NCBI RefSeq assembly: GCF_021917145.1
Contig: NW_025813757.1
Span: 1 to 64,000 of the forward strand
Length of the DNA: 64,000 nt
Direction: 5' to 3'
Source of the DNA: Hypomesus transpacificus
Lineage: Eukaryota > Chordata > Actinopteri > Osmeriformes > Osmeridae
Below the pieces are notes generated by a model. It saw only the letters and a list, made by a program, of their open reading frames with translations. It ran no database searches and was not told the DNA's origin. The position numbers and the translations under genes were made by a program. Of the stretch, positions 12,323-32,967 are shown in pieces. Numbering within the stretch: position 1 is the first letter of the stretch; each line of letters opens with the position of its first letter.

Positions 12323-14376
12323 GCGAGGCCCAGGCTGGACCCGGGGCCTAACAGCACTGGAGGGGGGTTTATGCTGCCTGACCACTCTTTTGCTTCCTCT
12401 TATCTCTTTTTGTCACATGGATGTTGTCTATGTATGACACCCACACTTTTCCACTTCTTGTACTTCACCAGACAGCGAAAAGTCTTACCTTTTTGAACCA
12501 CGTGAACCAATGCATCATTCAGGAGTATTTTAGGAATACTACTGTACATCTGACTTGAGGGTTTTAGAAGGTTTTCTAAGTCTAATGTTGCTTTGTCATT
12601 CCCGTTGAACTCCAGAGGCCTTGTGTACTGGTCTCTCAGTTGAGAGGTAGCCTGACATCTTCTGCAGTTGTTCTTAAGCTGTTTAATATTAGCACTTCAT
12701 GTTATTTTGCCATCTCATCTATGCACTCTCATTCCTTATCGCCAAGCTGGAAGGAAATGTTCCTGTTTGCAGTACATGCTCAAGTTAATGATGACCATTC
12801 TTGCAAACTCTTACAAAAAAAGTATAATTTATTTGCTGTTTGCTGTAATTTTTTTAAATTTCAGTCTAAATGCTGAATTACTTTAAATGGCAAATTTGAA
12901 TGACAGGAAATACAATTGACTACATTGCACTTATAAGTGTATTTAAATAGTTTTAGAAAATGTATTCATATATACAGTATATAAATATATATATTCAGAG
13001 ATTTACAGTATTCATATTTCTAGACCTTTATGGTGTGACAAACAATATACTTCTACTTCACAGTTTTTACAAATGGCCAAAGCATGTTCGGACATCAAAG
13101 TATCTTTCAATGGCAAATATGTACAGTATTGAGTTTTACCTATGGTTAGGTTCCATTCCATAATTTTAGATCCCTCTTGCAAAGTATTACTCTGTATGTG
13201 TTACTTAACGTTACAGTTGTTATCTTTTACGTATTTCATTTGTCTATGCATCATATTACGTTTTAATATGACTGAATATGATCTTTCCATGATGGCAGTT
13301 ACTGTTAGTTGTTTTAATATCTAAAAGCATATTTTGCTGTTAGTATATTAAGCTTCTAGCTCAACATTATATACCATAAGTCTTACCTACTCTTGACCAA
13401 TAAAAAAGCATTCCATCTAGTATTGTTTTTTAGTTTCTGTTTCATCCAATTTATATTGATCAGATTTTCCAATTCTCTTTGCTTTGAAATGTTGAATTGA
13501 GTTTTACCAATACTCATTGGCGTATCTAACCCTATTTATTTATTTATTCATTTATTTATTTATTTTTGGGGGGGGGGGGGCAAAAGTTTCACCAGCCCCC
13601 TCAAAATATATTTTTTGTTTTAAACTTTATTTTTTCTTTTTTTCGTATTTTAAATGTCAATTTGTCAATGTATCTTCCTAAAACCCACTAGAGGACACTA
13701 TTTAAAAGGATATTAAAAAAATGCCCCCAGAACATGCCCCCAGACCCCCCTAGTTTTGCTTGGTCACAGGAAAAATAATAGGTTTATCTAGGGGCTTAGC
13801 CCCCCAAAAAGTGGGAACCTAGATTCGCCCCTGCCAATACTTGATTGAGGATCTCCCACCTGTTACTGGAGAGGAGAGCTACCTTCCAGTGGTCTTCGCT
13901 TCCTGTGCCTCCTGGACAAGTAACGTTTGATCGATCCTGCTTCGTCTGCCTGATCTTTTAAAGTTTTCTCGTACTTTTGTATGAGGCTTAACCTTTGGCA
14001 ACACTTTTAAAAGGTACTTGTAGCCTACACAGACAAAACCTACTCTTGTATCCATGAGGACTAGAATACCCGAACTCTAAGCTTTATTGACCTCAAATGT
14101 GAGCGGGAGCGGGAGGCCATTCCGTCAGATTGGACTTTTCTTCGATGAGTGATCAAAAATAGAAATAATCTTCCAGTTTTAGAAATTGACATAGTTACTG
14201 CTAGCTAGCAGTAGCTGACAGGTACGTGCATCCCGTTTTTCATCTAGGTCAGCCAGGAAGTTTATTTAGCAAATTCAAGCTAGCTTTGACAAATAAAGTT
14301 AGCTACTTAAGTTAGCTAAATCAGTAGCTTAAAACGCATTTTTTCTCCTAATCCAAAATAGGAGTCACTTTCACAG
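12323..14376 (+). other. gmpr2 3'UTR, intergenic spacer and homez leader
   Basis: The gmpr2 3'UTR probably ends after AATAAA at 13399-13404. A hAT-type MITE follows (13515-13833). From about 13850 the sequence leads to homez. A donor CAG|gtacgt at 14221/14222 and an acceptor TTCACAG directly before the homez ATG (14375-14376) suggest a non-coding first exon ending at 14221. No other gene is seen. Confidence 0.5.
13515..13833. mobile_element. Short hAT-type MITE
   Basis: The 319-bp element has ends CATTGGCGTATCTA and TAGATTCGCCCCTG (imperfect inverted repeats) and a perfect 8-bp target duplication CCAATACT at 13507-13514 and 13834-13841. It is internally AT-rich with a G13 run and has no ORF. 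The 8-bp duplication places it with hAT elements. Confidence 0.78.
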
Positions 14377-16086
14377 ATGACCAGTGCCCCAGAGGCAACA
14401 GAAGTATGGTTTCCCGTTCGTCAAGAAAAGACAGAACGGTTAACCTCTAAACCGAAAACAACGTCTGGAGATAACAGACATAACCAGGTCTCCACTCTGG
14501 ACCAACCCCTCCCCACAGTCTGGGAGCGGGGACAGGAGTGTGTAGATCCCACTCTAACCACTTTCCGCTTCAACCAGAACCACGTGGTGTGCCTCCCTGT
14601 GTTCACAGAGAACCTGCGGCTTATCTGGGCGCGATCGGAACAAAAAACTCAGCAAATTTGCCGGGATGCAGTTTCAGAGCTTGAGAAGCACTTCGATGTT
14701 TTCCCTTATCCGACCCTACCAGAGATGACCACCCTAGCACTCCGCTACTTGCTGCACCCGGACCAGGTCAGGGTCTGGTTCATGACCCAGAGACTCTGCT
14801 ATGGCATCAGCTGGGACTGTGAGGAAATCTGCAAGGCTCGGACCAAGTTGTTTGGGTGCCAGTCAGAGAAAGGGGTCACAGGCAAGGAGAAAATTGTTCC
14901 AAAACAATACCGCATGCCTGTCAGAACAGACAGGGTCAACCTCAAGAAACTGCGGCATTGCTTCCAGCAAACCCCAAAGCCCTCCGAAGAGCAGATTTTC
15001 TGTCTGCACAAGGAGACAGGTCTCAGCATGAAGAATATTCGCAGATGGTTCAACAACCAACGCTTTCAGAAACGGTGCCGTGAACGAATATTTCCACAAA
15101 TCCAGACCTCACCATCCCCCCAGTCAGAGGCGGGTGATTTGACGGGGTCAACAGCCAAGACTTCAAGTGATGACGGTGTTGAGGCTTGGACCAAGTTGTT
15201 TGGGTGCCAGTCAGAGAAAGGGGGCACAGGCAAGGAGGTAATTGTTCCAAAACAATACTGCATGCCTGTCAGCACAGACACAGGCAACTTCAAGAAACTG
15301 CAGAATTTCTCCCAGCAAACCCCGGAACCCTCCGAACAGCAGCTTTTCTCTCTGCACAAGGAGACGGGTCTTAGCATGAAGGATATTCGGAAGTCAGAGG
15401 CGGGTGATTTGACGGGGTCAACTGCAAAGAGTTCAAGTAAAGACGGTGTCAGCGCAACCACCTCTGTCAACTTGGCTGACGTCAGACTGGCGGACAGCAA
15501 ATGTGAAGGGTGGACCAAGAAGTGTCCGGAACTTCCGGTACAAGCAGCCAGTCAGGAGACGCTCGGTGTGTTTCCGTACGGCAACGACGGTTCCGTTTCC
15601 GACAGTTGGAAGAACGAGACGAGGCAAGAAGCCGTCGGCGAGATCCCCTCCCCCACGGACGTCGAGGGTGGACTGGTCCCTCCGCCTCCCCCAGTTCCCC
15701 AGGCCGTTCACCCCTCCCCTGGGTCTTCCGAGAGAAGGTACCGTCAGAGGAATAAGACACTGCTCCAGCTTCAGCTGCTAAGGGAGACCTTCATGATCCT
15801 CCAGTGGCCCACAGCGGAGGACTACGACGGACTGCAGAGGCTGACTGGGCTCACCCGCCGGCAGCTCACGCAATGGTTCGGAGACATGCGCTACCACGTC
15901 AAGCAAGGCTTGGCTCGCTGGGTCAGGCCAGAGGAGAGGATGAAGGTCCTGGCCAGGGTCACCCGGGGTCCTGACAGGAGAAGGGGTCGGAGGAAGAAGG
16001 CGCTGGAGATGGAGGTGGGCCCAGACACGGACCTGTCAGACGTCCATCAGATGCTCAGCCGGTTCCTTCCTTCTCTGGATGGATGA
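14377..16086 (+). CDS. homez: Homez homeodomain protein with an internal duplication, single coding exon
   Basis: Atypical multi-homeodomain nuclear protein, presumed DNA-binding transcription factor. The intronless 569-codon ORF starts right after a TTCACAG acceptor. Homeodomain 1 is about residues 75-140 (VRVWFMTQRL helix 3). Homeodomain 2 is about 185-236 (MKNIRRWFNNQRF). Homeodomain 3 is about 454-512 (LTRRQLTQWFGDMRY). A basic segment RRRGRRKK (534-541) and an acidic C terminus follow. Residues 156-223 (from TKLFGCQSEKG) recur at 272-339, and SEAGDLTGSTAK at 250 recurs at 340. The second copy lacks the 26 residues W224-Q249 that include helix 3 of homeodomain 2. This is a tandem in-frame duplication with a later or simultaneous deletion. 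Intron-free coding and three divergent homeodomains are typical of HOMEZ. Confidence 0.9.
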   Translation: MTSAPEATEVWFPVRQEKTERLTSKPKTTSGDNRHNQVSTLDQPLPTVWERGQECVDPTLTTFRFNQNHVVCLPVFTENLRLIWARSEQKTQQICRDAVSELEKHFDVFPYPTLPEMTTLALRYLLHPDQVRVWFMTQRLCYGISWDCEEICKARTKLFGCQSEKGVTGKEKIVPKQYRMPVRTDRVNLKKLRHCFQQTPKPSEEQIFCLHKETGLSMKNIRRWFNNQRFQKRCRERIFPQIQTSPSPQSEAGDLTGSTAKTSSDDGVEAWTKLFGCQSEKGGTGKEVIVPKQYCMPVSTDTGNFKKLQNFSQQTPEPSEQQLFSLHKETGLSMKDIRKSEAGDLTGSTAKSSSKDGVSATTSVNLADVRLADSKCEGWTKKCPELPVQAASQETLGVFPYGNDGSVSDSWKNETRQEAVGEIPSPTDVEGGLVPPPPPVPQAVHPSPGSSERRYRQRNKTLLQLQLLRETFMILQWPTAEDYDGLQRLTGLTRRQLTQWFGDMRYHVKQGLARWVRPEERMKVLARVTRGPDRRRGRRKKALEMEVGPDTDLSDVHQMLSRFLPSLDG

Positions 16087-19744: not shown

Positions 19745-22700
19745 ATGGCAAAATCGTCGTCAAAGAAGGGTAAATAAAAGCTTTTTGTATCAAAGCTGCA
19801 CTGCATTTTTTGCCAAAATGGCATTTCTATCTATTGTTTTGTCTGGGCAGAACTAGAAGATAACTTGAGGTTCAGTGACAGATTTACAGCCTCTCTGCCT
19901 GTCAGCTAGCTACATTAGCTTAGTCCTATGGCTAGAAGAACTACTGGTACGCTTGCAGAGTGTCAGAGACAAGTTACCGAACTTTTTCCAATACTAACAA
20001 TGGCCACGTTTATTAAACCCGAATTCAGTTAATAATGAGTTAGATTTGTGTCGATAGGCGTAATGTAAAATAATTCCTCCAATTTGCTTTCTCGTTCCCC
20101 TCCCACAAAAGAAGACACCTTGCCCCTCCAAGCCCTGCGCCTCCTTGTCCCACCTGTGCGGCTGGTCTGTGCAGCCATGTGGAAAGTGATGAAAGAGAGG
20201 GACGTGATGCAATACGGGACCTTGGAGGAGTTTGTTACCTCCTCCTGCGAGACAGCTCCAGGTTTGCTCACCCACCGACACCAGGCCAAGCTGGGGCTGG
20301 GGCTGAGAGCACGGGTAGGTGGCACAATTATGGGGAAGTTGGGTGAAGAAGGATGCGTGGGTGTTGGTTGCATGGTCATTCTCCTCCATCTGATGAGAAC
20401 CCAGTTGTCTATGCTATGTATAGGTCTGTTTTAGGAATATAAGTAGTACACATGATGAGTATGGCTGGAGTGATCAGTGGTAAAAACAATTAATATGATT
20501 TTACACTGGGTTGGTAAATGGAAATGTATCATGTCCTCAGCTGTTGGGTCTTTTGACCTTTTCGTTCCCAGCTGATCCTGGAGCTGTGTCGTGGTCAGGA
20601 CTCTCCGGATCCTAACACCATCCTTCCTCATCTTGAAAGAATTCGTGTTCCTGTCACCTTGTCCTCCGATCTTAAAACGGTTAGTCTGGTTTTGGCCTTT
20701 ACCTCTAAGCTTAGGTCTCCATCAATGTCAAGAGAACTTTGAAACCTCCCCACCAATAATGGCAACTTTTACTTCAAGTGAACACGACTCGACACAGACC
20801 TAGTTGAACTCACGTTTAGGTTCTTCTGTAGTAATAATAATAATAGTAAGACTTTATTTATATAGCACATTTCATGCAAGAATTGCAGCCCAATGTGCTT
20901 TACATAATCAATAAAAACGATAATACAAGTGATAAAAGTAATTTTTAAAAATACATTAAAATGTAACAAAACAAAATACAAGCAGCAGTCTTTGCTGTCT
21001 CGAGTCTGTCTTAGACTCGAGCTGCCTTTGCAGTTTCCAAAACATATAACAACCATATAGTATTTGGGATGTTATCTTTTTTGAGGAACCCAAAACGGTT
21101 CAGTCCTGAGAGAACGGCTACACTACTATGCGTCTTTGTGCGTTTTGATTTCAGAAGAGGGACATCAAGATCGAGGCAGCAGTATCTAACTTCCATGACT
21201 TTGTCTCGACCATCCTGAGAGATCCCACAGAGAGAGAACAGTTCTACAAGGTCAGACTCGTGAGCTTTCATCAACTAATTCTACTCAGAAAACCTAACTT
21301 GCTTAACTCAAATCCTCCCCCTCAAACAATAGACTCACTGCCCTGGGAAGCCTGTGTGATATTGTCTGTCACTGTCTCCTCACTGTTTTAAGGAGGAGTT
21401 TCTCACAGAGTATGGGCCTCAGTTTGACCTGCAGCTAGAGAAGCTCCTATGGGAGTTTCTAGTCAGGCTGGACCAGCTGCTGCCTGTGCCCAACTTTGTT
21501 CAGGTAGGAAGGCTACTGGGACACCACCAGACCACTTTTTTCGTTGCTATGGCAACCCTGTGTTGTCTTCCTGTTGACTTTGTTGTTTTTGTTTACTTTT
21601 TGTTTTGTCGTTCAGTCTTTGTAATGCCCGAAATTGCCTGTGGTTCTAGTCAAGAAGATTTGTCAAACAATACCATTACCAAGCACAATTAATTTGGAAA
21701 GGTTCATCATTGTAGTTGACAGCTTTTAGTTATCCCTGTAATTCCTATTAAATTGATAGAAACTGGTTATTTGTTTAAAAGCCCTGTGTTATCTTTCCCT
21801 TTTGTGATTTCAGACAGTGTCCTCCTGGCTCAACGTCGCCCCCTCTGTCATGGAGGAGTGTGTGCTGGTTGCTTCCCAGCCCCAGCATATGAAGGCTCTG
21901 CTCCAGCACCAGAGCTGTCTGGGCCATATTGAACCAGCAGGTGGGACCAAATAACAAAAATAAATATCACTCAAACCATTACCATGTTCATTTTGTCAAG
22001 TCTTCCTGAGTCGTTCTATTTCATTTCCTTCGCCAGCGTCCCTCCCGCCTTGCCTGGGCGACACCATCCTCTCCTCGCTGTCTCTGCCTCCATCCAGAAA
22101 AGTGCGGGAATCCAGTCCCAGCGTTATGCAAACTGGACCACTAGCGACCAATCACAGACAGCCCAGGGACAGTTTGCCATTCATCGACCCAGTGATTGGA
22201 CGGATGTCCACCAAAGACCTGCCGATCATGTTGGCAGCTAGAAGGAGAGCAGGAAGTGATCCTGTCGGTTTAAGAGACTCTTTAGAACAGTCAGATTCAA
22301 CTGGGAGCTCCAAATGCACCGCGCTCAAACGGATCTCAACACATCTAGGTAACACGGCGAGGGAGGAGGTGGAGGAGATGCATGTTCAGGTGAAAAGTGC
22401 AGCCCAACACGAACCTGGAAAGAAAACAAGAGATGAGGGATCCGAAGCTACAAAGAAGGACGACGAGACGAACCCCGGACGAGGGACTAAGAGGAGGAGG
22501 AGGACCATGAAAGACGGAGCGAGCACGTCCTCAGAGGAGAGCGAGGCTGATGAAGAGTGCGTTTCTGGAAGAGAGGGGGCGTCCCAGGGCGACCCAAGGA
22601 ACGATGGCGCGCCTAGATCTGACGCTTCACCCCGGAAACTACCGGAAGACGTGGCCCTGTCGTCCTTGGTGACGGCTTGTCTCCGCTGCCAGCCCAGAGT

Positions 22701-24448: not shown

Positions 24449-26246
24449 TTACAGCCTGCAGCTGATTCCTCCTGTCACAGAGACCGTCTCCCCAGTCATG
24501 TAGGAGGCCTCCTTGGAGCACAGGAAAGCAATCACGCCGCCAATCTCCTCTGGCTCTCCAATCCTGAAAAGAACGAAAAGTTTATTTTTACGTTTTCTTT
24601 CCAAACCACGTACCACAGACTCCCTTAGCCTTCACCAACAGGGTAAAACAGTAAATTCACTGAAGGGATACACATCATTACTGAGATCCGAAAGTGGAAA
24701 ACATTCGGTGACGACAGTGTGCAGAGCAGATCGAAGTTGACTTAACCTTTTAATGCAGAGCTGCTTTTTGAACTCGTCCACAACGTCTTCATTCTGCCAC
24801 AACTGTGGAAAGAACACAGCCATGTCAGCGCAGACATAAAACCACGAGATAACGTCATCACAGCAAGACCTTTTAGGTCCCCTTTGAAGGTTTTGTCAGC
24901 ACGTCAATGAGGAAAAGTGGAATAGGCCTTGTGGTGGACTGATAAACGATTAACACTATGGCAACAGTTCCAACCCGATTTTGGTCTGTCCTGAGGGGAG
25001 AGAGGACATGGAAGAGGGGGGTGCGCTGGGGATGAACGGATGCCCCTCACCGCAGAGCTGAATCGGGTCTTGATGACCCCGGGGGCCACACAGTTGACCC
25101 GGATGTTGAGCTGAGCCAGTTCTGGAGCCATGGCTCGGGTCAGTCCCAGCAGTGCTGTCTTACTGACGCTGTACGGACCCAAGGCCTGGGGGAGGACACA
25201 GAACGGCTCCAGTAAAACTCACACAGGGTCATTATCTAACAATACAAAACTTTTAGCCCCCAAAAACACCAACTCAAACTCCAGACCACATTTTTTTACT
25301 TAAAGATTTGGGGTGCCCCACCCATTATGACCTCACGCACCTGCATGGGCTGGTATGCAGCCACAGACGACACAATCACCACACTGCCGCCCCTGGAACA
25401 CAACCACCATGTAGTCAATCAATCACGGTGGATCTGTGGACGTTGCACCAATCAGGGAGCTGAATCCCACAACCGCCTCCACAACAGCAGCTTCCCCTTA
25501 CTCACCCCCTCTTCTCCATGTGAGGCACCACTAGCTTGGTCATGAGGAAAGCTGCCTTCACGTTCACACTAAGGATCTGACGGAAAGGTTGGAGAGATTC
25601 CATTATTGGCTTGGCGTTAGAGCAAGGTCGTAGCACACACGCACACACGTAGGATAGATATAGCCCGTTTCTTAACATCAGATATATCAATAGCTCAAAT
25701 GAAAGTACAAATTTAGCCGTTATATGTTTGAATTGTAAATGTTAGGGGCACCTTATCCCACACTGCCTCTGTGGAGTCCATGATGTTTCCAAAGTAGGGA
25801 TTGACAGCTGCATTGGAAACCAGGATGTCCACCCCTCCACACTTTTCCACTGTCTGAACACAACAGCGATGAACTATCAGTTATTCGTCAGGAAGCTCCT
25901 GCTCATAGCAGTAATGCCGACCTCCAGTCAAAGTGAACTTATTCATGAATACCTGAGTGAAGCTAGTGTAGCACCTTACTGGAAATAACACAGTTCATTA
26001 GGTGTGAGGCAGGCCAGTGGACGTTAAGGATGTCCTCACCATGTTGACTAAGCGCTCTCTGTCCTCGCTGATGCCGACATTACAGGTGGTCCCAGTGACT
26101 TGTATGTTCTCACTCTGCAACAGGCTCACGGCCTTGTCAACATTAGCCTGCCGCCTACTGCTCACTACCACATGGGCTCCTCTATGGCCAAGTGCCTGAG
26201 CTGCAGCAAGACCAATTCTGGAAGACAAAAGGGGGAAAGGCAGAGG

Positions 26247-26575: not shown

Positions 26576-26986
26576 TACCTGTGAAATTGCACAGTTCTGT
26601 GAAATGGCACAGTTCACAGTTTAACGCCGCGGCTCGACTTATGATCAGACGCGTTGACACTGTCAGACTACTATCTGATTGAGGTTTTTGTAGTTGTTGC
26701 TAAATCACGTATTCGAAGTCAAATGTGTTAGCCAGTTGAAAAAGCACTTACCTTTGCTCTGTGCATGCAACCGTCTACTGACAAGCAGTGTATATAGGTG
26801 AAAGGTTATATTAGGTAGCTGCGTTCGAGTCGAACCATTTAGTGCGGGCGGTACAAACGTACCTACAAATAATAATGTTTAACGATAATGTTAGAAATGA
26901 TTTGGTAAAATAAGTAACTGAGTCTAAAACTCTTAAATATGTGCAGTTATGAGTAGTTAAAAAAAAAATCTTAGATTCGTGCAGCT
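26576..26986. promoter_or_regulatory. Shared upstream region of dhrs4 and the PRY/SPRY gene
   Basis: About 410 bp between the dhrs4 start codon (minus) and the first apparent leader of the plus-strand gene. The layout suggests divergent promoters. No factor site is claimed. Confidence 0.35.
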
Positions 26987-27097
26987 ATGAACCGAGATGG
27001 ACGGAAACCACTGGGGGACGTTTGGAGGAAGGGATCCGGAAGAGCGCCCATTTCTTTCCAAAATAAAAGTCCCTTTAAAGCTGTTCAGACTAAATGA
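26987..27097 (+). other. 36-codon upstream ORF in probable leader exon
   Basis: An ATG at 26987 opens a 36-residue basic peptide (start MNRDGRKPLGDVWRKG) closed by TGA at 27095-27097. A donor-like AAG|gtgagg follows about 15 bases later. It is most simply a uORF in the 5' leader of the downstream gene. The RKPLGDV segment resembles short motifs of cell-cycle proteins, but that similarity is too short to mean anything on its own. Confidence 0.3.
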
Positions 27098-27695
27098 AGG
27101 GGCAGCCAGCCCAAGGTGAGGCATAAATAATTGTTCAATGAAGTTTGAATTCTGCGCCGAACGTGTTCACCGTTTAGGATATGTAATATGGCATTTTGTG
27201 GTGTTTTTATAATGTATATTTAATCCAGGTGACGCTCACTGAACTGCGGACAACTAGGCACAATCAAACCAATCTGAAAGTTGCAGGGCACTGGTGGATG
27301 GACTTCATAAGGAATCAGTATTTAATAGATCAAATATTTTATTTCAATGCAAATGTTTCATTTGTGACACCATACTCTCTCCCTCTGACTGGCGAGAAAT
27401 AAAAACCGCTTTGTTGCAATGGCAGTTAATTGCAATTAAGCATTCCACAGGTGAGTTGATTAATAGTCAAGGTAAAGAAATCGAACTGTTTTAATTCTCT
27501 CTTCATCTTGGCCATACCAATAAGTAAGTCTTTGTTGCAACTATTTATGTCCAAGAATTGTGTCGTCGTTTTCCTTTCCTATTTATGATATAATACTTTC
27601 TCCATCTACTGTGTGAACACAAATTGTAATACGATGGCGGGGCTGTAATTTAACGCATCTAAATTGACCTTTTATTCTTGTTAGGAGCTTCAAGA

Positions 27696-28720
27696 ATGCC
27701 TTTGCTCGTCCCTATTTGGACTACTGTCACAGTCTTGCTAGTTTGTGGACTTGGTGCTTGTGGTGGGTGCCTTGCTTATCTGTGTATTTGTTAGTTAGGG
27801 TTTGTATTTTCATACTGTACATTGCCACCGGTGTTAAACTTGATTTGTAAACGCTATGTGAAGCTTTTGACCTTGACGTTTCTTTGTTTTCAGTTTATTA
27901 CATTGTACGTTTAGAGAGACAACTGTTAGAATCTTCTGGTGAGTATTTCTACTTAAGTCTGTGAACGGTTGTGCCCATGTCTTATTATTGAACTGAACAA
28001 TGGAATCTTCATTGAAGGAAATTGAGGTTATTGAAATCAAGCCGAGTTGATGGTAACAAGGGAAGCCAAACTGAGGACCTTTATGCTGTTGAAACGTTAG
28101 CATTACTACATTATCCAGTATATCAAATACATGTTGGAAGGTCAGTGGTTATCCCATTGCGTTGACTCACTAGGGCTGTATTTTGCCTACAAATTGCTCT
28201 CTGTCCTAGGTTCACTTTCAGAGTTGGAATCTGATGCAGGGTCAAGTAATCAGACAACAGGTACATATCTGATTAGAGCTTTGATATCCAACAAAAACTG
28301 AGTACCTTATGCTGTTAGAAATTTAGCATTACTACATTATCCAGTACATCAAATACATATTGGAAGGTCTGTTGTTATCCTATAATGTTCACTCACTAGG
28401 GCTGTACTTTCCCTACAAATTGCTTTCTCTGTCCTAGGTTCACTTTCAGAGTTGGAATCTGATGCAGGGTCAGAGTTGGAATCTGATGCAGGGTCAAGTA
28501 ATCAAACATCAGGTACATATCTGATTAGAGCTTTGATATACAACATATAAACTACTGAGTACCTTATGCTGTTAGAAATTTAGCATTACTACATTATCCA
28601 GGGAGTCAGGTGGCTGAGCGGTGAGGGAGTCGGGCTAGTAATCAGAAGGTTGCCGAATCGATGCCCCGCCGTGCCAAATGACGTTGTGTCCTTGGGCAAG
28701 GCACTTCACCCTACTTGCCT

Positions 28721-28799
<79 letters not shown>

Positions 28800-30291
28800 A
28801 ATGTCCCTGTACTTACTGTAAGTCGCTCTGGATAAGAGCGTCTGCTAAATGACGACATGTAGATCCAGTAAATCAAATACACGTTGGCAGGTCTGTTGTT
28901 ATCCTATATGTTCACTCACTAGGGCTGTACTTTCCCTTCAAATTGCTTTCTCTGTCCTAGGTTCACTTTCAGAGTTGGCATCTGATGCAGGGTCCAGTAT
29001 TCAGACATCAGGTACATATCTGAGTAGAGCTTTGATATCCAACATAAAAACACTTGTTTCCACGTAAGATCAGTCCAACAATTGTAAATTAGCCGTATTA
29101 ACTTTTTTCCCCCCAGTTGAACCAAACTGGAACCTCCTTGCAGGTTGGTTATAGTTTATAGTTGGAAAGAAACTGTAAATGTTTGATTATAGTCATTTTA
29201 AGATGACAAATGATCTAATTCTGGATTTAATTCATATCAATTAAGGTTTATTTGTTATTTGTTCCCCCCTATACACACTGACTCACTCACTGACTCACTG
29301 ACTCACTGACTCAGTTAAAGATGGCAGGATCACAGATGACGGTAAGGTTTTGCACAGTTCTGCTGTTTTTGCCCTCTTGTACCTTTGTCAATTCCCCCCC
29401 CCCCCAACACAGTTCTTCCTGCCCCTGTAACAGCTTCTTAAGACTTACCAAAGTCCTTCCAAAAGGTCAAAATATTCAGAGGCGATTCAGCATTTATGAG
29501 CACTGCTCTTTCCTTCCATTGACTTTCAATATCTTACTATCACCCTTATTTTAGAGATGGGTATTTTGGTTCTAGGAAGTGGGAGACAGTTTAAACATTT
29601 GGTGAAATTGGTTCTGTCAGTTCTGATACCGTTTTTACATGACAGCTGAGTGATTTCACTTTCCATTTCAGTGTGGAAGTGGATACAGAGTTCTAAAGGT
29701 ACGTGTTTGGTGTATTTTCCATTTTGTATACATGCAGAAGCTTGTTACACATCATACTGCTTTCTTTTTTTTGCAGTCAAGATTGTGCTGGAAATGAAAA
29801 CGGCCAATAGTTTTTTGAGGTTGAGTAACGACACCCAGAGGGTGTATTTGGCATTTACTAAATCAAACTCTGTAACTGCTGACCCCCTGAGATTCAGTGC
29901 ATGTACCTGCATCCTCGGAAAAGACTCCTTCAAAAAGATGTTCTACTTTGAAGTTCAGCTTCTGTCGCGCCAGTGGTCAGTGGGTGTCACTTACAGCAAT
30001 GCCAAAACCAACATTACCCCATTGTCTGATAGTGTCTGGAGTATAGGAATGAAGAAAAACAAGTTTTACACTTTTTTGACCGTTTCCAAGTTGCTTAACA
30101 AGCCTGTGCCCAAGTTATTAGGGGTACACGTGAACTACCAAAGAGGGACAGTGGCCTTCTACAACATCGAAACTCAGGAATTCATTACAGTTATATCTGT
30201 AGGTCGCACCTTCAGTAGGTCTGTAGTGCCTTTTTTCTTTGGTGTAAGTTATGAGTCAGATCTAAGCTTGTTTTTGTTGAGAAACTCGTGA
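27696..30291 (+). CDS. Single-pass membrane PRY/SPRY (B30.2) protein, butyrophilin-tail-like, nine coding exons
   Basis: I do not recognise an orthologue. The exons are 27685-27762 (ATG 27696), 27894-27938, 28210-28260, 28438-28512, 28961-29011, 29117-29143, 29315-29341, 29672-29698 and 29777-30291. They give 294 residues in one frame, and every internal junction is phase 1. Residues ~5-27 are one hydrophobic helix (PIWTTVTVLLVCGLGAC then VYYIV). Next come a short basic/coiled segment (RLERQLLESS) and three related acidic Ser/Glu repeats (SLSELESDAGSSNQT). Three 9-residue pieces from three 27-nt exons follow. The C-terminal ~170 residues form PRY-SPRY (EMKTANSFLRLS; CILGKDSFKKMFYFEVQL; WSVGVTY; LGVHVNYQRGTVAFYN). 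TM exon, short 21/27-nt phase-1 exons and one B30.2 exon is the layout of butyrophilin tails, but no Ig exon was found upstream. Function unknown; an immune role is inference. Confidence 0.72.
28080..29040 (+). repeat. Threefold tandem duplication of an exon with flanking intron
   Basis: A unit of about 230-250 bp occurs three times. Each has CTTATGCTGTT..., ACTACATTATCCAG, TCACTAGGGCTGTA, the exon GTTCACTTTCAGAGTTGG and the donor gtacatatctga. The second exon copy has an extra internal 24-bp duplication (SELESDAG). The third unit is split by a SINE (28603-28862). Confidence 0.9.
28603..28862 (+). mobile_element. tRNA-derived SINE, copy 4, with a 78-bp poly-G tract
   Basis: Same family as the copy at 8402 (head GTCAGGTGGCTGAGCGGTGAG, tail CGCTCTGGATAAGAGCGTCTG), inserted into the third exon-repeat unit. 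The position where other copies have CTCGGGGGGAATG holds 78 consecutive G (28721-28798). Confidence 0.88.
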
Positions 30292-30454
30292 TACATTATT
30301 GGGTGAACTGAACAAAATAATTTTTTATATTGTCTATACTGTACTGACACCCTTCGGAGCAAGGGGAGGACTTTGATTGTGAAAAATGGGGGTTACATTC
30401 CAGGCCAGTAATGCACCTCAAACTGCAGCAAGGGTCTCCCTCCCTCTTGTCTCA

Positions 30455-31500
30455 CATCCCATTAGGCACAACCCCTTCTATTTTCAAGTCATTGACCTGA
30501 ATCACTGCCTCAGTGTCTACCCCTATCTGATGCACTCTACACTGAATGCACTGGTACTGCTGATTTGGTGCAGACAAGTGCCAGTGAAGATGGTTTATCT
30601 CTCCTCCAATCCACCTCTGGTCCAGAGTGTGGATGTCACTGTGTTGGATGTGGAAGGGGTGCACAGGTCTCCACCCAGCCCGGTGGAGGTGCTGTACCAC
30701 AGACCGGGGACCATGCCTGTGTTCTGGCTCAGCCGACTCCTTCCAACCACAGTTCCTGGTAAGATTTCCAGTGTTCAGAATGGTTACCCTGAAGTGAGGC
30801 ACTGCAGAGATGTCTTGGGGATAAGAGGTTATTTTGAGAGTTGGTGGGTTGGAATGTATGGTGATATGTAGATGTCTGCATGTGTAGTTTGTTTCTGAAA
30901 TTGCACAAGCCACCCCCACCCCCCCCCCCAAAAAAAGAGAACCCCCACACACACTTCCTTCCTCTGTTTGGCCACACCTGTTTCCTTGTCTGGTGAGAAT
31001 TCCGACGCTATTTTTTCTCCCATTCAGTCACGGCCATCTGTCTGGAGGGACATGTTTTTTTTTCTTTTTTAACCAGACTCTAACTGTGCTGCTCCAACTC
31101 ATTCCATAATCAACCCCACAATAATGCATTCACCAAATGAATTCTGAACCTTTTCAGGGCTAAACTGTTACTTTTAGTTAGTTTTAGAACATGTACCTGG
31201 CAGTGAATTTTATTGTTGGAATTCTTTACATAATTGAGTTATGATGCACAAACTTGTTGACGATAGGGTCTTCTGCTGCTGGGAATCTTGTCATCACCAC
31301 TCTGACCCACAGTCACTGAGAGGAGAGCCAGTTTACTTAATTAAATGTCACGTTTTGCCCCCAGGTCATAGCCTCGGGGTTGACTGTACCAGCTCGGAGG
31401 TCGGCTGTGGCGTTGACTGTAGAAGCTCACAGGACTACTCTGGCTCTGCACTACTGAGTGGCTGAGCTGTTCCACCATGCACCTGGTTTCTACAGACTCA
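30455..31500 (+). pseudogene. Decayed partial duplicate of efs
   Basis: Four separate segments match efs in the same order and strand. (1) 30470-30510 (CAAGTCATTGACCTGAATCA) matches 33548-33575, the end of efs intron 1. (2) 30580-30740 matches 34132-34290 in exon 2: VYLSSNPPLVQ against VYLSPGPPLAR. (3) 30970-31025 (GGCCACACCTGTTTCC, GGTGAGAATTC) matches 35773-35830 in an efs intron. (4) 31435-31500 (GAGTGGCTGAGCTGTTCCAC, ATGCACCTGGTTTCT) matches 38572-38620 in the last exon. The SH3-coding part is missing and splice sites are not kept. The YxxP motifs have become VYLSS, VHRSP and LYHRP. Only 485 nt remain open (30386-30871). It is best called a tandem-duplicate pseudogene. Confidence 0.75.
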
Positions 31501-32967
31501 TGACATTTTTGACAACTTTTAAACGGTTTTAAATCTTTTTACCTCTTTAAAATGCCTTCATTGTATTTTTTTGTCTTTATATTAAATGATTTACCTTTTG
31601 TGTGTAAATATGCGCATGCATTTCTCCTTTTTGTTGGTTGAAAACAAATGCGATTTATAGTGTAAGGATGTATTATCCTAATGACCTTCAAAGCCAAGGG
31701 GTTGGGCTTAGGTGACAAAAGTGAAGGGTGGCGTACTGGCCAATATGTGATATGACCTTGATATCGTTTTCTAGCATGCCGTTTTAAAGACCTAAAAACT
31801 AATTTAAAATATTGAATGACGAATGTAAAACTAATGAAAATCAATGGAGTTTGGCCAATTAAGTTCCCCCTTGACTCGATAGTTCCCTCTGCTGACCATA
31901 GTTATAGGGCAAGGACATCTTAATCGAGCTTCTTATATGAGCCTCCTTTCATATGAAAACCCAACAGTTCGCATCTGTGATAAATGACTAGTACCTAAAC
32001 ACAGTAATTGACTTAAGTTAATTGTGTATGACGAATCTACACGGAATATGAATATGCCTTCAAATTCTAGACACGTGACCACGCCGCCCTAGTAATGATA
32101 GCAGTAGTCTTCTGAACGAACGCGAGATGACGGTAGTACATGGCCACACAACTCGCTCTTAGCTGAATTGTATTTGAACAAAATGTGATGTTTGCGAACT
32201 GTCTACCGTAAGTTCTCTACCTAATGGTATTTTATTTCATGCCAATATTTTGATAGGTCCGTGGAAATGTTTGTTCACAGGATTTGGCCGTCTAAACCAA
32301 ACCAAATTGTATTAGCTAGTTATCCTAGCATAGTGGCTAACCTAGCTACAAGCAAGCCATGCCTTTTGTTTTGAGTGTACTAACCACAGAGTTGTTTAGG
32401 GGCAAGTAGATTGAAACGGTAAGCATAGATTGTATAGCCTCAACTGTGATACCGTATAGATATTATAGTATGACCCTGAACCGTAGCCTACGTGTTTAGA
32501 CTACTTGATATGTGAAATAGGAAAGGTGTATGTATTTCGATTGAGCCTAGTACTGGCCTGTGATCCAGTTTGCAGGCAGTTGGCGTAGCCATCCAGCAAA
32601 TTGGAAGTCACTATCTAAAGGTTATGTTGTGAAAATATAATTTGTATGTATAATTGATGAAGCATCACCTCATACCTTGCTTAATCTCGGTTACCGACTC
32701 GTCTAGGGAGAGTGACACATCGATGCCACTGCGGAGGTTTGTGTGGTCTGGATGACAGAACCAGCAGTGTGGCTGTGTGGGCTCATGACACGCTCGACGG
32801 CTGCACCTCCAGTTCTCGGGCTGTGGAAATTAGAACAAATCCTCGGACGCTCAGATCGTTTGACGGAACCAGTCGACCTCCTGTGTATGTAGATGGACGA
32901 CCCGGAATTTTGCCGAATCTGAAGCACATCGCACTGAAGGAACTCAACGTAAAAGTCTCAAGCAAAA
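31501..32967 (+). other. Spacer and probable 5' leader of efs
   Basis: A donor ACC|gtaagt at 32207/32208 and an acceptor GTCTAG at 32701-32706 suggest a leader exon ending at 32207 and a second exon 32707-32979 that carries the efs start. Upstream sequence (31501-32090) has no ORF or repeat I can name. The 102-codon frame at 32712-33020 overlaps the leader in another frame and has no family features. Confidence 0.35.

Follow-up and report, generated by a model that had tools for sequence, protein, structure and literature searches.

A candidate butyrophilin-tail gene with a membrane helix, tandemly duplicated linker exons and a B30.2 domain in Hypomesus transpacificus

The best-known butyrophilins use B30.2 to sense inside the cell, while their Ig domains report to gamma-delta T cells. 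A gene that retained only the first of these modules would uncouple the two functions naturally, and would allow cytosolic butyrophilin function to be studied alone. According to PMC12841164, non-mammalian butyrophilins are largely unexplored, and no Ig-less butyrophilin combining a transmembrane (TM) helix with a B30.2 domain was met in the literature searched, which covered few subscription journals. The candidate gene described here is located in the first 64,000 nt of contig 89 of the H. transpacificus genome (437 Mb, 376 contigs), referred to below as the window. On balance, it is read as a butyrophilin-tail gene, whose product would cross the membrane once, with hardly anything outside the cell and a B30.2 domain in the cytoplasm.

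The candidate resembles human BTN3A1 and the butyrophilins of the same fish in having a TM exon, tiny phase-1 exons including 27-nt ones, a single B30.2 exon, an early W in the last microexon, and a similar B30.2 sequence. It differs from them in that no IgV or IgC exon was found and in a longer linker made of tandemly duplicated exons. Zebrafish btr31 also carries a membrane helix ahead of B30.2, but according to PMC3137616 it retains a RING as well as both ends of a bloodthirsty-like TRIM protein, whereas no RING was found in the candidate. The cytoplasmic tail of chicken BG proteins was likewise lengthened via many small repeated exons, which are of 21 nt (PMC4046983). In PMC8813856, BG proteins are described with an Ig V domain and a long tail of heptad repeats, and no B30.2 is mentioned for them; in the candidate, B30.2 is present and no Ig V exon was found. 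Class IV TRIM proteins and fish NLRs with B30.2 share with the candidate the domain itself and a B30.2 exon with a phase-1 acceptor; in contrast to them, the candidate has a TM helix and lacks any detected RING, B-box or coiled coil.

Gene model and splice sites

The candidate gene has nine coding exons on the + strand (27696-30291) and a predicted product of 294 aa. As shown in Table 1, the hydrophobic exon is followed by one short exon, three linker exons, three microexons and the terminal exon. All eight introns are GT-AG, exons 1-8 each end in phase 1, and there is a single open frame, which bears out the nine coding exons, the phase-1 internal junctions and the three successive exons of exactly 27 nt claimed in an earlier note on this DNA.

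Table 1. Features of the candidate gene (positions in the window)
Feature	Position	Strand	Remarks
Possible first coding exon, ATG AAG GGG CAG CCA GCC CAA G	27094-27115	+	phase-1 donor gtgagg; in frame with TM exon
TM (hydrophobic) exon, phase-1 acceptor, contains ATG 27696 (MPLLVPIWTTVTVLLVCGLGAC)	27685-27762	+	donor gtgggt
45-nt phase-1 exon, TM end and basic juxtamembrane stretch (VYYIVRLERQLLESS)	27894-27938	+	
Tandem-duplicated exon-intron region with three linker exons	28081-29048	+	families D1-D6
51-nt phase-1 linker exon, copy 1 of duplicated exon-intron unit	28210-28260	+	
75-nt phase-1 linker exon, copy 2	28438-28512	+	24-nt tandem duplication inside
51-nt phase-1 linker exon, copy 3	28961-29011	+	
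27-nt phase-1 microexon VEPNWNLLA	29117-29143	+	
27-nt phase-1 microexon VKDGRITDD	29315-29341	+	weak acceptor (score -1.9)
27-nt phase-1 microexon VWKWIQSSK	29672-29698	+	
Terminal 515-nt exon, PRY-SPRY (B30.2)	29777-30291	+	stop TGA at 30289-30291

Splice sites were scored with an ad hoc position matrix. By this matrix, the phase-1 acceptor before 27685 was in the top 2.5% of the AG sites of the window. For the end of the TM exon, the donor at 27783 (score -6.5) was rejected and the donor at 27762 (score 3.5) was preferred, and judging by these scores the exon probably ends at 27762, not 27783. Upstream, the donor at 27115 scored 7.4 (top 0.2% of GT sites) and closes a possible ATG exon; the frame joined to the TM exon is open and would give a 305-aa product. 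A rival donor at 27450 scored 8.8, the ORF there has no ATG in that frame, and this donor could close a noncoding 5' exon instead. With these two strong donors, the 5' end of the gene may lie farther upstream. The phase-1 acceptor of the TM exon had been read as if an Ig exon once preceded it. The acceptor stands, but taken by itself it is not the scar of a lost Ig exon, since a 5' exon at 27094-27115 would need the same acceptor. An open stretch of 40 aa at 26975-27094 has an early ATG, and its stop overlaps the possible start ATG at 27094; it is possibly an upstream ORF or a separate small gene.

The duplication unit of the linker is about 226-228 nt between copies 1 and 2, and an insertion displaces copy 3. 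The duplicated linker exons showed identities of 0.92-0.96, compared with 0.89-0.98 in the flanks, values that are not informative on selection, and the exons are conserved no more than their own introns. Linker exons 2 and 3 are separated by an intron that contains an unbroken run of 78 G at 28721-28798, within an insertion labelled SINE-like by eye.

A stop-free stretch of 171 codons had P = 2.6e-5 at local composition, and the PRY-SPRY match is significant too, both exceeding what chance would give. Between the TM and B30.2 exons, 16 open phase-1 mini-exons passed the gene's own loosest thresholds, compared with 1.6 expected, and nine of the 16 were alternatives sharing a donor with one of the seven model exons. 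The microexons are weaker by splice score alone, and their support comes mainly from their register with other genes. Retention of the last intron (29699-29776) would preserve the frame, because it is 78 nt long, a multiple of three, and open in frame.

Twelve polyA motifs were sought in the 1.4 kb past the stop, and only AATGAA at 31136 and ATTAAA at 31340 and 31581 were found, the last of which sits past another apparent exon pair. This pair, on the + strand at 30383-30758 and 31365-31465, is in frame, with a phase-1 donor at 30758, an acceptor before 31365 and a stop near 31463, and with the ATTAAA at 31581 it looks like the 3' end of another gene. Its first ORF matched nothing in Pfam and, in the PDB, nothing better than E 0.3.

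Membrane helix and upstream region

The predicted product has one hydrophobic segment, whose highest 19-aa Kyte-Doolittle mean is 2.06. Each of the 12 windows above 1.6 begins within residues 1-12, in agreement with the single TM helix proposed earlier. The hydrophobic run from LLVPIW to VYYIV covers about 25 residues and is followed by RLER. The choice of start codon sets the charge balance around the helix and therefore the predicted topology. If translation starts at ATG 27696, an N-outside/C-inside topology is predicted, because no charged residue lies ahead of the helix and RLER lies behind it; with a start at 27094, the topology is ambiguous by eye. The hydrophobic segment starts only a few residues after ATG 27696, as it would in a cleaved signal peptide, and snake venom has secreted proteins with a signal peptide and PRY-SPRY. 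Secretion of the candidate protein is nevertheless very improbable, as the length of the run and the RLER behind it are like those of a TM anchor and a clear cleavage motif was not found by eye. As a membrane protein, the candidate would run from its anchor through a flexible Ser/Glu/Gly-rich linker encoded by the tandemly duplicated exons, and a short neck encoded by the microexons would join this linker to the cytoplasmic B30.2 domain. A search of the genome with the TM exon and first linker exon gave a best match outside the window of E 0.42, with stops.

Six Ig exons from three local butyrophilins gave no match in the 64-kb window at E 1. An Ig V pattern that found one Ig exon in each of three control loci found none in the six frames of the window, and a RING pattern also found none there. 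No Ig was detected in a Pfam scan of 19 ORFs, no RING, B-box or coiled coil by Pfam in the scanned ORFs or the candidate protein, and no NACHT by Pfam in the candidate protein. On the + strand between 26562 and the TM exon, no frame reaches 90 aa. The two longest upstream ORFs (71 and 78 aa) gave no Pfam Ig or RING and no PDB match at E 1, and their one weak Pfam match (E 0.024), with an uncharacterized family, was under the cutoff. As the searches with local Ig exons and the Ig pattern, and the Pfam scan of the longest ORFs upstream, were all negative, an upstream Ig exon joined to the candidate was rejected, and the absence of Ig exons claimed in the earlier note holds for the window searched. 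The candidate thus has the C-terminal B30.2 domain, the TM exon and the small phase-1 exons of a butyrophilin, and no IgV or IgC exon was found. A protein with no ectodomain cannot present anything outside the cell, and the candidate protein itself would not be visible to a receptor on another cell.

The candidate gene is located downstream of a minus-strand short-chain dehydrogenase gene (Pfam match, ORF 24907-25218), named dhrs4 by the earlier reader. On the + strand, a homeodomain ORF with three matching stretches was found at 14362-16083 and a TINF2_N match at 21360-21689; this neighbourhood presumably corresponds to part of the human 14q11.2 region.

Neck exons and affinities of the B30.2 domain

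At least 149 SPRY places were found in the host genome and about 25 B30.2 loci were read; statements on nearest relatives cover these approximately 25 loci, except for two BLAST-type searches. The IgV exon of butyrophilin L011 matched 27 genome places at E 1e-5. Eight B30.2 places have, by position, a same-strand IgV exon about 1.5-4.5 kb upstream, and one of these eight IgV exons is split into two pieces with stops. L011 has IgV, IgC and TM exons of 348, 282 and 120 nt, respectively, and phase-1 microexons ending with EITGKIPDS (27 nt) and VWNLMVECA (27 nt), followed by B30.2. Locus L023 has two genes, with EITNKIPES and VWGLMLEHA at the positions matching the L011 microexons; one IgV exon is intact-looking and the other is broken. 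L036 has IgV and IgC exons of 348 and 282 nt, three 21-nt and two 27-nt exons, and B30.2, and its 27-nt sequences differ. The link from TM to B30.2 by tiny phase-1 exons, given in the earlier note as typical of butyrophilin genes, was seen in L011 and L036. A possible third butyrophilin of the C15 cluster, L026, was rejected because it holds a RING gene.

The second microexon of the candidate, VKDGRITDD, is in register with EITGKIPDS and EITNKIPES, and the third, VWKWIQSSK, with VWNLMVECA and VWGLMLEHA, although it shares only V and W with L011. When these two exons were compared with three butyrophilin rows, two of them identical, 36 of 20000 shuffles reached the summed score, for a pairing chosen post hoc. 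The alignment with human BTN3A1 crosses the junction of the last microexon and B30.2, and the W of VWKWIQSSK aligns with a W of BTN3A1. Among the loci read, the exon most alike to VWKWIQSSK is VWSWISSAS of L034 (6/9 residues). No Ig or TM exon was found in L034, which was considered as a possible near relative of the candidate, and its upstream exons are not butyrophilin-like. The region of L034 and L035 (C25:5616900-5629500) has helical-looking exons ending in the 27-nt VWSWISSAS exon and B30.2, with gelsolin-like exons adjoining (labels by eye). The motif G-x-I-T-(N/D) recurs, by eye, in a 54-nt exon of L037.

The PRY-SPRY domain read in the last exon was recovered by HMM search above both Pfam cutoffs: PRY at E 5e-8 and 32.9 bits (cutoff 27.5), and SPRY at E 1.5e-6 and 28.7 bits (cutoff 26.3). 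The best PDB sequence match was the B30.2 domain of BTN3A1 (E 4.7e-16), followed by pyrin (3.2e-14) and then BTN3A3. Among the 54 PDB matches at E 1e-8 or better, only the butyrophilin alignments start as far upstream as query 120-123, which falls within the last microexon. An AlphaFold model of the B30.2 exon alone had a pLDDT of 43.7, too poor to use. In the host genome, the closest matches of the candidate B30.2 were long open frames on contig 49 (34% identity, best 6e-19), and the two of these that were read are both single-exon RING-B30.2 TRIM genes. Matches to butyrophilins were weaker: 31% and 1.6e-11 at C76:112.7k, 1.2e-6 and 6.2e-6 at two C25 loci, 30-32% with 5.9e-6 and 4.1e-5 for the L023 genes, and 27% and 1.5e-5 for L011. 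In a B30.2 tree of 23 rows, the candidate had the longest branch (3.31) and grouped weakly with L009_8308 and L010_2395 (86/88), both of which have RING exons upstream. By these sequence comparisons, the candidate B30.2 is very divergent and closer to TRIM genes than to local butyrophilins; the architecture points to a butyrophilin, whereas the B30.2 domain taken alone does not.

Such a mixture could also arise by exon shuffling, in which a TRIM-type or L034-type B30.2 exon and its 27-nt neck exon were joined to a membrane anchor; the product would then serve as a recognition module held at the membrane by its anchor, and the gene would not be a butyrophilin by descent. The affinity of the B30.2 domain to TRIM genes and that of the last microexon to L034 among the loci read agree with this, zebrafish btr31 (RING-TM-B30.2, PMC3137616) is a precedent, and the B30.2 acceptor is phase 1 in 14 of the 15 loci with a scored acceptor, TRIM and butyrophilin alike. 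However, two consecutive 27-nt exons are in register with butyrophilins L011 and L023, the best solved relative is BTN3A1, the window has no RING pattern, and the B30.2 branch is so long that its placement in the tree is unsure. Exon shuffling is therefore considered unlikely, and a butyrophilin tail is preferred. The earlier note had proposed either a butyrophilin-derived gene with its ectodomain lost or a membrane-anchored B30.2 protein. The anchored B30.2 tail is the preferred reading, given the exon logic of the local butyrophilins and the failure to find an Ig exon in the window. The gene probably descends from a butyrophilin whose Ig exons were lost or left uncopied, but this falls short of proof, because the B30.2 domain is nearer to TRIM genes and, among the loci read, the last 27-nt exon has its closest counterpart in L034.

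The phosphoantigen pocket of BTN3A1 includes W350, H351, H378, W391, K393, R412, R418 and R469, as given in PMC4337483. At these positions the candidate has A, C, S, a gap, N, T, K and F, respectively (by eye from the alignment, numbering by counting), so that 0/8 are identical and R418 to K is the only conservative change. A phosphoantigen sensor of the BTN3A1 type was rejected, and sensing of this kind is unlikely, because the pocket residues are not kept. In human and alpaca, phosphoantigens are stated to promote the association of the intracellular domains of BTN3A1 and BTN2A1 (PMC10533412), which would make pairing with full-length butyrophilins a reasonable inside-only role. The candidate may act at the membrane from the inside only, as a partner or regulator whose ligand would be a cytosolic protein or metabolite, or else the B30.2 domain of a full-length butyrophilin.

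Similar layouts elsewhere in the genome

The candidate is of interest mainly since its layout seems to recur in the same genome. Locus L027 (C60:372900-380900), on the minus strand beside butyrophilin L011, has the order TM, tandem microexons and B30.2. An ATG lies shortly inside its hydrophobic exon (best 19-aa mean 2.45), basic residues follow, and then come eight tandem phase-1 exons of 33, 39 or 42 nt (e.g. GTGVDDSTQTSHQ), one 21-nt exon and B30.2. A phase-1 acceptor is readable 26 nt before the ATG; the hydrophobic exon could be the first exon, because this acceptor scores only 0.8. No butyrophilin Ig exon was found upstream of L027 in the approximately 11 kb of L027 and L028. A further copy of B30.2 lies in this stretch; it is 95% identical over query 19-171, with a shifted frame before that, and between the B30.2 copies there are two copies, 94% alike, of another hydrophobic exon. 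A search with one of these did not find the ATG exon of L027. L027 and L028 appear as a cluster of TM-B30.2 genes in which no Ig exons were found, with retroelement-like ORFs between the copies.

A linker lengthened by tandem exon duplication is common to the candidate and L027. The two loci may be independent, because their B30.2 domains are not close (12 bits). That a single genome has two such loci with a lengthened tether suggests a design that recurs, not an isolated accident. We tentatively propose, as a doubtful but possible generalization, that fish repeatedly make inside-only butyrophilins as a class apart, ectodomain-free membrane-tethered B30.2 proteins whose tether length would evolve by tandem exon duplication, and which would serve full-length butyrophilins as cytosolic subunits or decoys, or would work alone as B30.2 sensors at the membrane.

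Butyrophilin L036 has a tail-only duplicate at L030/L039 (C76:91500-100300), in which DNA homology starts just after the TM exon, and the 2.8 kb ahead of its first heptad exon gave no Ig match. Tail-only partial duplications thus occur in the host genome and are a plausible origin for Ig-less genes. The candidate could itself have lost its function, being only partly duplicated or in decay, like this duplicate or like the frame-shifted B30.2 copy beside L027; such tail-only and frame-shifted copies exist, its B30.2 is highly divergent and its polyA context is poor. However, all introns are still GT-AG, every junction is still in phase 1 and the frame is open through all 294 codons despite the very long branch and several in-frame duplications, which is hard to square with an old pseudogene, and a relic is quite improbable. 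As far as the sequence goes, a frame that stayed open while the gene diverged and repeatedly gained in-frame duplications speaks for a functional gene. The L036 duplicate on contig 76 has heptad exons and B30.2, with the heptad cassette multiplied.
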